In this document: in pieces, positions 18,990 through 37,374 of the stretch
How the letters are laid out: every line of letters begins with the position of its first letter
How positions within the stretch are numbered: position 1 is the first letter of the stretch
Made by a program: the position numbers and the translations under genes
The notes under the pieces: model-generated
What the model saw: the letters and a program-made list of their open reading frames with translations, nothing else
Databases searched by the model: none
What the model was told of the DNA's origin: nothing
Source: Dyadobacter luteus
GTDB lineage: Bacteria; Bacteroidota; Bacteroidia; Cytophagales; Spirosomataceae
DNA length: 64,000 nt
Reading direction: 5' to 3'
Assembly (NCBI RefSeq): GCF_003383615.1
Contig: NZ_QNUL01000027.1
Span: 1-64,000, forward strand

Positions 18990-19943
18990 TCAGAACACCT
19001 GTCTTGCAATCTGAGCGACGTTGTCAGACTTACCCATTGTATAAAAATGCAATACAGGCACGCCGTACGCCAGTAGTTCTTTACATTGCTGTACCCCCCA
19101 TTCGATTCCAACCTGGCGAACGTCTTTTTCAGAAGCGGCTGTAGCTGCCTTAACAAGATCTTCAGGAAATTCGAGGTGGAAGATATCAGCCAGGACAGTG
19201 AGTTGCTTTTTGGTTGCGAGAGGCTTTAGCCCTGGGATAATCGGAACAGTGATTCCTTCTGCACGACACCTGTCCACGAACCTGAAAAATTTCTGGTTAT
19301 CGAAAAACATTTGGGTCACTATATAATCAGCTCCGAGTTCAACCTTTTTTCGCAGGTATTCAAAATCTGTGTCAAGACTGACAGCATCAATGTGTTTTTC
19401 AGGATACCCGGCTACACCAATGCAAAAGTCGGTGGGCGTAGTCTCTGTTTCTGCATTGAGCAAAATACCCTTATTCATATCTGCTACCTGTGTTACCAGT
19501 TCAGAAGCATAGGTATGCCCGCCATTTTTAGCATGAAAAACGCCAGCAGACTTTTCAGGATCCCCGCGAAGCACTAGTACATTGTCTATTCCTAAATAAT
19601 GCAGATCGAACAATACGTCTTCCGTTTCTTCTTTGGTAAACCCACCGCATATCACGTGTGGCACTGCATCAACATGAAAGCGTTCCATGAGTCTTGCGCA
19701 GATACCAACAGTTCCTGGTCTCTTACGAACCGGAATTCTCTCAATGAGCCCATTAGGTCCTACCCTGTCAATAAGTTCTTCTCTATGATAAGTCACGTCG
19801 ACGAAAGGCGGCTTAAACTCCATCAAAGGCGCAATAGAATCAAATAACTCATTGATGTTCTGACCTTTAACAGGAGGTATTATTTCAATTGAAAAGAGTG
19901 TTTTGCCGTTTGCCTGACTTATAAATTCGGTAACTTTTGTCAT
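18990..19943 (-). CDS. metF: methylenetetrahydrofolate reductase
   Basis: This 317-residue flavoenzyme reduces 5,10-methylene-THF to 5-methyl-THF, supplying the methyl group for methionine synthesis. The TIM-barrel motifs are intact: FSIEIIPP at the N-terminus with the catalytic glutamate, FVDVTYHRE, VPHVICGG, DNVLVLRGDP, IGVAGYPEKH, and GADYIVTQMFFDN. Length is normal. The gene is monocistronic. Its 5-prime region (about 19944-20196) contains a promoter-like pair, two hairpins and a strong terminator 79 nt before the start codon, so transcription attenuation is plausible. metX in this window is also leader-controlled, which fits a methionine-pathway regulon, although the metF leader does not match SAM-I. 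Confidence 0.96.
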   Translation of the reverse strand: MTKVTEFISQANGKTLFSIEIIPPVKGQNINELFDSIAPLMEFKPPFVDVTYHREELIDRVGPNGLIERIPVRKRPGTVGICARLMERFHVDAVPHVICGGFTKEETEDVLFDLHYLGIDNVLVLRGDPEKSAGVFHAKNGGHTYASELVTQVADMNKGILLNAETETTPTDFCIGVAGYPEKHIDAVSLDTDFEYLRKKVELGADYIVTQMFFDNQKFFRFVDRCRAEGITVPIIPGLKPLATKKQLTVLADIFHLEFPEDLVKAATAASEKDVRQVGIEWGVQQCKELLAYGVPVLHFYTMGKSDNVAQIARQVF

Positions 19944-20015
19944 GATTGGATCTATTCGGAACTAAAAAGTTCACAAATGAACGGCATTTCGAAACCCAAA
20001 CCAATGAGGCGAGCA

Positions 20016-20160
20016 CAAAAAAATGGCTTACCGCATTACAGTAAGCCATTCCACGTAAACCCTCCTCTATCAGTGTTCGTCAAAAAAGTTGATTGGAGTT
20101 CTGACGGGCGTCAGTTCCAAAGCAACAATTTGCTTGACTGAATACTAATAACTAAAATTC
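20016..20160 (-). ncRNA. candidate structured leader or small RNA upstream of metF
   Basis: Reading the minus strand from about 20160, three hairpins follow a promoter-like sequence. The first has arms 20135-20130 and 20125-20120 (AAGCAA/TTGCTT). The second has arms 20119-20110 and 20105-20094, with a CTGAC/GTCAG core and an outer TGGA/TCCA stem. The third is a terminator with arms 20050-20041 and 20031-20022 and a T-run. A short TCAG/CTGA helix could close the first two into a junction. It could be a cis-acting attenuator of metF or an independent RNA of about 140 nt. I do not recognise a known riboswitch class. Confidence 0.42.
20022..20050 (-). terminator. intrinsic terminator upstream of metF
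   Basis: AATGGCTTAC and GTAAGCCATT form a perfect 10-bp stem with a 9-nt loop. On the minus strand the right arm runs into seven T residues (20023-20017). It sits between the elaA-like gene and metF, 79 nt before the metF start. Confidence 0.85.
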
Positions 20161-20165
20161 TGTGC

Positions 20166-20196
20166 CAAAGTATTAAACTTATTTGGAATACACAAA
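20166..20196 (-). promoter_or_regulatory. promoter-like element for the metF leader
   Basis: On the minus strand TTTG (20196-20193) and a second TTTG (20169-20166) are separated by 23 nt, the distance expected between the -33 and -7 cores. The -7 box reads ATACTTTG instead of TAnnTTTG. The inferred start is near 20160. Confidence 0.45.
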
Positions 20197-20338
20197 TGAA
20201 GACGCGAAAATGTAAATCAAATGTAGTTAAAGTACTACATTTTAATCGTATAATCCTTACATTGTTCAATTTTTCAAGGAATCGGCATTTTTTCGTGTAT
20301 ACTAATTCATCACTATTGGGAAAAGCTTCCACATTTTG

Positions 20339-20815
20339 TTACATCTCATTTTCTTGTGCTTTTATGGTCATTTCAATATGATCAATTCCATCCTCAGGAT
20401 ACACATCGCTGGTCTGAACAAAGCCAAAAGATTCGTAAAATGCTTTGAGATATAACTGCGCACCAATCCTGATCGGCACCTGTCCGTACACGCCCGTGAT
20501 TCTGTCAATGGCTACATGCAGTAACTCTTTCCCGAGCTTCTCACCTCTTCCATCCTGAGATACGACAACCCGTCCTATAGAAGCATATTGATACGAAATA
20601 CCGGGAGGCACGATGCGGGCATAGGCAAACAGTGCCCCGCCTCTCCATCCTGACAAATGCTCACACAACTGATCCTTATTATCCATATCCGGGAAAATAC
20701 AGTTTTGCTCCACTACAAATACCTCACTCCTAAGCCGCAGTATTTCATATAATTCATGCACATTGAGCTCAGTAAATTTCTGAACCGACCAATTTAGCTT
20801 CAAATCCATTTTCAA
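20339..20815 (-). CDS. elaA: GNAT family N-acetyltransferase, ElaA-like
   Basis: This 158-residue protein has the ElaA form of the GNAT fold: an N-terminal LNWSVQKFTELNVHELYEILRLRSEVFVVEQ, then the acetyl-CoA binding segment around IGRVVVSQDGRGEKLGKELL (V/I-x-x-x-x-R/G-x-G at about 88-96), and a C-terminal FYESFGFVQTSDVYPEDGIDHIEM. ElaA proteins are presumed acetyltransferases of unknown substrate. Residue 3 is an alternative start that better matches the family N-terminus. The gene stands alone, followed about 290 nt later by the structured RNA region before metF. The family is well supported and the reaction partner is unknown. Confidence 0.92.
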   Translation of the reverse strand: MKMDLKLNWSVQKFTELNVHELYEILRLRSEVFVVEQNCIFPDMDNKDQLCEHLSGWRGGALFAYARIVPPGISYQYASIGRVVVSQDGRGEKLGKELLHVAIDRITGVYGQVPIRIGAQLYLKAFYESFGFVQTSDVYPEDGIDHIEMTIKAQENEM

Positions 20816-37132: not shown

Positions 37133-37232
37133 GAATAACCCACCTAATGAAAAACGGTTTCAGCGTCAGATACGAGATTAAAGCCATCCGGCTTACGGAA
37201 ATTTCTAACTGTAAGTTCTTTTACGAATTGAG

Positions 37233-37337
37233 TTTATATCTCCTAAATAACTTAGGTGGGAATTAGCACCTTTCTCCTATTTGGTAGCAGGTTGCCAGAG
37301 GTTCGTAGAGCCCATTCTCTCGCCTCTTCTTTATAAA
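37233..37337 (-). promoter_or_regulatory. SAM-I (S-box) riboswitch aptamer upstream of metX
   Basis: Minus-strand sequence contains the S-box signatures GGCAACC and GGTGCTAATTCC. The pairings of the SAM-I fold are visible: P1 from TTTATA (37337-37332) with TATAAA (37238-37233), P2 from AGAGG with CCTCT, P3 as an ACCT/AGGT stem, and P4 as CCTAA/TTAGG (in 37257-37243). The P2 loop TGGG (37314-37311) can pair with CCCA at 37260-37257, the known pseudoknot. SAM binding would be expected to switch off metX. Confidence 0.9.
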
Positions 37338-37374
37338 TCAATCGCTGAATAGTGAAGCAATTGACTTGATGGCA

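Follow-up and report, generated by a model that had tools for sequence, protein, structure and literature searches.

A conserved structured element upstream of metF in Dyadobacter luteus, probably a stand-alone small RNA gene

The closest described counterparts of the element reported here are FopS and GibS of Bacteroides thetaiotaomicron, which are described, in the part of the report consulted, as multi-copy paralogous sRNAs that share a short, conserved and unpaired stretch adjoining a Rho-independent terminator (PMC11697453). The same part of that report voices the suspicion that phages spread some of the FopS and GibS copies (PMC11697453). A second point of reference is the ribosome of the Bacteroidia which, according to the consulted portion of a study on Flavobacterium, normally hides its anti-Shine-Dalgarno (anti-SD) sequence; in that account ribosomes lacking bS21 translate rpsU better by means of an extended SD (PMC9976891). 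In the literature searched, nothing was found on small RNAs of the Cytophagales, and among papers on Dyadobacter none was relevant, as judged by title.

The window, i.e. the whole stretch of 64,000 nucleotides of Dyadobacter luteus DNA that was analysed, carries upstream of metF a real structured element on the minus strand, the parts of which are listed in Table 1. An earlier, sequence-only reading had placed promoter-like boxes, hairpins and a perfect terminator here, 79 nt before metF, and had left the choice between an attenuating riboswitch and an RNA of roughly 140 nt that stands alone. Boxes, hairpins and terminator were all confirmed in the interval; the terminator stem lies approximately 79 nt, and the end of the T-run 73 nt, ahead of the metF ATG. 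The stand-alone RNA is the half of that choice which the comparisons below support well at the level of sequence: the element is conserved, its pairing is compensated, promoter-like boxes precede it in most distinct genus sequences, it has its own terminator and it is kept where metF is gone. On balance, it is probably a stand-alone small RNA gene with a linker that may act in trans.

Table 1. Coordinates of the element and of neighbouring features in the window
Feature	Position	Strand	Remarks
Element overall	20016-20196	minus	Between GNAT acetyltransferase gene and metF
Sigma-A-type promoter-like pair TTG-N20-TACTTTG (Bacteroidota -33/-7 style)	20166..20195	-	TTG 20195-20193, TACTTTG 20172-20166
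TGGCAC-N5-TTTA box	20153..20167	-	Conserved across genera (alignment A2, 17 sequences)
5' folded domain: basal helix UCAGU/ACUGA, inner helices, apical CUGAC/GUCAG hairpin	20070..20141	-	
Invariant linker GAUAGAGGAGGGUUUAC	20055..20071	-	Predicted mostly single-stranded if the RNA starts near 20141
Intrinsic terminator, 12-bp stem	20017..20050	-	Stem 20050-20022, T-run to 20017; conserved loop region ACUGUNAUGCGGU
Promoter-like stretch of metF, TTTG-N19-TTTG	19974..20000	-	Putative promoter
Dyad AAATGTAGTACTTTAACTACATTT	20219..20242	-	Possible operator; roughly 23 nt ahead of the TTG of the promoter-like pair
metF (methylenetetrahydrofolate reductase)	18990..19943	-	Pfam PF02219, E 5e-67; judged outside the RNA gene
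GNAT acetyltransferase gene, upstream of the RNA	20339..20815	-	Pfam PF13673; yebC beyond

A generic scan gave seven promoter-like sites versus 9.8 in shuffles, and three terminator-like sites versus 3.4. The terminator was found by the scan, while the TTG-N20-TACTTTG pair was missing from its list. The scan is by itself no evidence; what goes beyond chance is the identity of the RNA relative to its flanks and the compensatory changes in its pairs, both given below.

The element had been described as unrecognised and as unlike SAM-I, and both descriptions hold. No Rfam family reached its gathering score within it, the SAM-I model did not match it, and up to an E value of 10 only implausible families were returned, far below their gathering scores; at eight related loci the three matches obtained were likewise implausible and far below gathering scores. 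The SAM-I riboswitch that had been ascribed to metX was recovered at 37231-37339 on the minus strand with 73 bits, and was the sole Rfam family at gathering score in the window.

Based on blastn with the RNA, strong matches (E 4e-8 or better) were present in all 48 genomes of the genus Dyadobacter, and the 3' part alone matched at least seven of the 174 other genomes of the family (Spirosomataceae). A covariance model, R1, was built from 17 RNA sequences and covers the 3' 58 nt; it scored 77 bits or more in at least 55 of the 222 family genomes, the same 55 as blastn, and over the order it matched at least 23 of 390 genomes, all of them in the same family. Both searches were run with strict filters, under which weak relatives may be missed. 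In one genome per named species (approximately 85,000) the exact pattern occurred at 42 loci, 36 in Dyadobacter and the remaining six in Persicitalea, Telluribacter, Rhabdobacter and Arundinibacter. Plasmids gave no match to the RNA. At the yebC loci of 20 other-genus genomes without a strong RNA match, flanks of 1.5 kb (one locus cut by a contig end) contained neither gnat nor an RNA-like linker; four shorter purine matches seen there are apparently unrelated. Among 35 distinct genus sequences the mean pairwise identity was 0.86 for the RNA and 0.34, 0.44 and 0.46 for three flanking segments, the lowest value belonging to the stretch upstream of the RNA.

The minus strand, taken over 161 nt, folds at -54.6 kcal/mol (z -5.3), and none of 200 shuffles was as good. 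The plus strand folds well too (z -4.5), as is usual for strands with inverted repeats, and this counts against the stand-alone small RNA. RNAalifold was applied to alignment A3, which consists of the 35 distinct genus sequences (copies with identical RNA dropped), and returned 36 pairs. Compensatory changes, whose absence was to refute the sequence-only reading, were found: ten of the 36 pairs are altered on both sides within the genus with pairing kept, and 99.1% of cells are paired, a share which falls to 31-47% when the partners are slid by one to three columns. Nine pairs with changes on both sides were counted in the 5' folded domain. The covariation score of the structure, which was derived from the same 35 sequences used for its testing, was reached by none of 500 shuffles. 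The two basal helices hardly vary and are thus uninformative on pairing. Across genera, four of the 12 terminator pairs are compensated and 100% of cells are paired (nine distinct rows); the loop region ACUGUNAUGCGGU is conserved, with L062 as the single departing row. Two points tell against the stand-alone small RNA here: the number of further pair types is unexceptional, being matched by 34 of 500 shuffles for the 36-pair structure and by 311 of 500 for the terminator, and outside the genus the 5' domain differs in sequence and fold, so that only the 3' 58 nt align cleanly.

Two candidate features were discarded. The closing helix of the sequence-only reading (GGCAC paired to GUGCY past the T-run) is possible in just 18 of the 35 genus sequences, counted by eye, and it is uncompensated among them because its 5' arm stays GGCA[CT] in 35/35. 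A small frame, GTG-GAA-TGG behind AGGAGGG, is cut by TAG or lost in six of seven other-genus sequences.

The most constant part of the RNA is the linker, in which GATAGAGGAGGGTTTAC was identical in 17/17 rows of alignment A1. These rows were chosen to span seven genus labels and were picked by the exact 13 letters GAGGAGGGTTTAC; since GAGGAGGGTTTAC is present in all seven other-genus loci and AGAGGAGGGTTTA at the RNA locus in all 48 genus genomes, row picking lost no RNA-bearing locus. The invariant stretch measures 17 nt across genera and is longer inside the genus. Over 20 sequences, the predicted unpaired probability of GAGGAGGG was 0.53-0.83 in short transcripts (start near 20141) and 0.37-0.77 in long ones, so exposure depends on the RNA start. 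With a start near the GGCAC box the linker would be exposed to a moderate degree only, a further point against the stand-alone small RNA. The invariant linker GAUAGAGGAGGGUUUAC is likely to pair with or bind something.

In its order of parts, with a folded 5' domain first, then an invariant exposed linker and a terminator at the end, the element resembles base-pairing sRNAs. Transcription would begin past the GNAT gene, at a promoter belonging to the element, and stop at its own intrinsic terminator ahead of metF. The predicted RNA of approximately 125-150 nt would consist of the folded 5' domain, the exposed linker GAUAGAGGAGGGUUUAC and the terminator hairpin. The linker may then serve as a seed that pairs in trans with target RNAs, much as in FopS and other multi-copy sRNAs. 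Initiation regions were taken from 1.6 Mb of one relative (1,245 rough ORFs); complements of the linker were not enriched in them (as 7-mers, 39 regions versus 48 for shuffled linkers), a result that leaves room for single targets. The exact 13-mer AGAGGAGGGTTTA was found elsewhere at 19 extra sites in the 48 genus genomes versus 15 for the reversed control; both results count against the stand-alone small RNA with a pairing linker.

The missing enrichment of complements speaks instead for another kind of stand-alone RNA, one in which the exposed AGAGGAGGGU contacts a protein or the ribosome and not mRNAs; we regard this as possible but rather unlikely. The length of the invariant stretch across genera also suits such binding, and AGAGGAGGGU resembles an extended SD that could pair with the 16S 3' end of ribosomes lacking bS21. 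The conserved GGGUUUAC part, on the other hand, reaches past the range of anti-SD pairing, taking the 16S tail as generally known, none having been found in the DNA searched. Among proteins, the GGA-binding protein CsrA was found in none of 14 genomes by a search that was positive in three of 14 control genomes, and a CsrA sponge was rejected on this ground.

Paralogous loci were sought for the stand-alone small RNA with R1, whose second-tier loci have a similar linker followed by a different hairpin. A linker is shared by paralogous loci, as in FopS, though no enrichment was found for the exact 13-mer by itself. With scores of at least 33 bits, siblings were found at no fewer than seven loci in six of the 55 RNA-bearing genomes, and at none, among the matches listed, in two overlapping sets of 167 and 367 RNA-less genomes. 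From 21 second-tier loci that were fetched, the four from RNA-less genomes are weaker and were left out of the ORF count; 15 of the 17 from RNA-bearing genomes are without an overlying ATG-started ORF of at least 80 aa. One sibling locus is common to four species of one tree clade (L139, L143, L144 and L146), and the genome of the window has a candidate of its own (G000:C10:1113-1170, 31.8 bits). The siblings might share targets with the main RNA.

One sibling, L140, is the same DNA as L232:1755-1814 (32.1 bits), and L148 is a related region. L232 is a predicted viral contig (Dyadobacter prophage) in which a linker copy and a GC-rich hairpin lie beside an outward-pointing repressor-like gene; among the nine ORFs scanned, matches to HNH, DNA clamp and methyltransferase were obtained beyond this gene. 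L140 has no T-run at its hairpin and is overlapped by two frames that start with TTG (91 and 110 aa). A 16-mer search of viral contigs gave 11 matches, L232 among them, and the matches in viral contigs L226, L233 (21.8 bits over 25 bases) and L234 (17.2) were treated as chance. A wider proposal, which we put forward as doubtful, is that Dyadobacter and its relatives hold a lineage-restricted RNA family with a syntenic hub and siblings built on one exposed 17-nt stretch, that prophages took this stretch into their repressor regions, and that phage and host RNAs might share a partner, either target mRNAs or the anti-SD left free without bS21.

The promoter-like pair in front of the RNA follows the -33/-7 style of the Bacteroidota promoter consensus, and a counterpart, TTG-N19..21-TA[AC]TTTGG, was identified in 27 of the 35 distinct genus sequences. 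The eight sequences from which it is absent form one clade (L063, L064, L066-L071), which weighs against the stand-alone small RNA. Across genera (A2) TGGYAY, or AGGCAT in L060, is followed by TTT[AT], and the TGGYAY-N5-TTTW box is also present in the clade devoid of the sigma-A-type pair. If the sigma-A-like pair were the promoter, the RNA would start near 20162; the TGGYAY box would place the start near 20141. Sigma-54 promoters carry TGGCAC-N5-TTGC with -24/-12 spacing. A sigma-54 promoter was rejected for this box, in which TTT[AT] replaces TTGC and the -12 GC is therefore lacking. RpoN was found in 13/13 genomes; in a 1.6 Mb sample, where counts are too small to weigh either way, TGGCAY-N5-TTGC occurred at four coding and three noncoding sites and the TTTA form likewise at four and three. 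Farther upstream, the AAATGTAGTACTTTAACTACATTT dyad has arms of at least 7 nt in five of the 14 genus loci shown, which lie outside the eight-member clade and L065. Separately, GGGGAA/TTCCC-like inverted repeats were seen at 20317-20332 of the window, just past the GNAT gene, and by eye such repeats recur about 150-190 nt upstream of the RNA at several of 30 loci, other genera included.

It is improbable that the RNA is cut from the 3' UTR of the GNAT mRNA and that the terminator is that of the GNAT gene. In 54 of the 55 RNA-bearing genomes GNAT does precede the RNA on its strand (tblastn; undetected in L065), and the eight-member clade without a sigma-A-type pair would fit such an origin. Against it, the gap of approximately 180-200 nt between GNAT stop codon and RNA in the window is poorly conserved (34% identity), and the promoter-like pair precedes the RNA in all genus sequences outside that clade.

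Neighbouring genes were examined in the 48 genus genomes and in the seven other-genus genomes that bear the RNA. GNAT and yebC, the latter found near the RNA in 55/55 genomes, are its more constant neighbours. As expected of a stand-alone sRNA, the element has a conserved, compensated structure and its own terminator and is independent of any single flanking gene; metF does not provide the fixed place before a regulated gene that a riboswitch would have. In five of the 48 genus genomes (G009, G022, G035, G008 and G109; loci L012, L015, L024, L025 and L074) the RNA is kept, no metF was found and a convergent ybjQ comes next. A genome-wide search with the window's metF as query (E up to 0.001) was negative in all five, which are 99-100% complete, and positive in four of four controls. 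On a yebC tree of the 55 genomes the absence of metF needs four changes, three of them forced by well-supported branches; it is most simply explained by separate losses, with one regain possible among the changes. In all seven other-genus genomes (L056-L062) other ORFs follow the RNA and metF starts 1.1-1.7 kb after the linker. The first of these ORFs is small and acidic (76-99 aa, longest ATG frame) and starts 107-226 nt past the start of the linker core; upon reading of the sequences, lipocalin-like and small lipoprotein-like ORFs were also noted at some of these loci.

These arrangements leave a cis-acting attenuator or riboswitch of metF, the other half of the earlier choice, very unlikely. 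It would be favoured by the short distance between terminator and metF ATG and by metF lying directly downstream in 43 of the 48 genus genomes. Set against this are the genomes without metF and the changed gene order, on which the reading of the RNA as a leader of metF was rejected. In 15 sequences no strong antiterminator was seen, the terminator 5' arm being paired with a probability of just 0.41-0.61 once the 3' arm was left off. Position ahead of a methionine gene says little, taken alone, about whether an element is a riboswitch.

Some metF loci carry a promoter-like stretch past the terminator, which also opposes an attenuator. Among the metF-bearing genus loci, 43 in all, the gap between terminator and metF was searched in 42 (all but L008): 24 contain an ATTGGT/ATTGGA block, 15 a match of the type TTTG-N18..21-TTTG, and in 12 the spacer is shorter (43-48 nt) and holds no promoter-like match. 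Based upon these sequences we infer that the stretch behind the terminator may serve as the own promoter of metF. At L039 (genome G119) metF, at 1731-2685, is matched in two pieces that overlap near its start, which may point to a frameshift.

A lineage-specific 6S RNA is barely credible. Neither 6S (positive in four of 14 control genomes) nor 6S-Flavo (0/14, and so lacking a positive control) came over cut-off in 13 family genomes, so that a 6S RNA has yet to be assigned in these bacteria. Against this reading, no 6S model matched the RNA, its predicted folds are without the large central bubble in a long rod that characterizes 6S RNA, and 167 of the 222 family genomes had no RNA by R1 among the matches listed.

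A conserved and compensated RNA with an invariant linker and with siblings, one of them in a predicted prophage, offers an entry to RNA regulation in Bacteroidota beyond Bacteroides. Like SAM-I (RF00162), which in the window also lies ahead of a methionine gene, metX, the Dyadobacter RNA precedes metF, but it matches neither the SAM-I model nor that of any other Rfam riboswitch, and it keeps no cis gene. With 6S RNA (RF00013) and 6S-Flavo (RF01685) it would share the character of a stand-alone structured RNA, while matching neither model. The extended SD of Flavobacterium rpsU, as presented in the consulted part of that study, is a similar purine-rich GGAGG stretch in a group whose ribosomes rarely use SDs (PMC9976891); rpsU is an mRNA, whereas the short GTG frame after the linker is broken or lost in most of the other-genus sequences. 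The likeness to FopS and GibS, drawn by description and not by sequence from the consulted part of their report, consists in the phylum Bacteroidota, the paralogous copies and the conserved unpaired stretch by a terminator (PMC11697453). FopS, as described there, has its unpaired stretch at the 5' end and promoters of the sigma-ABfr type (PMC11697453), whereas in Dyadobacter the linker follows a folded 5' domain and the RNA has one syntenic hub copy with a few siblings.
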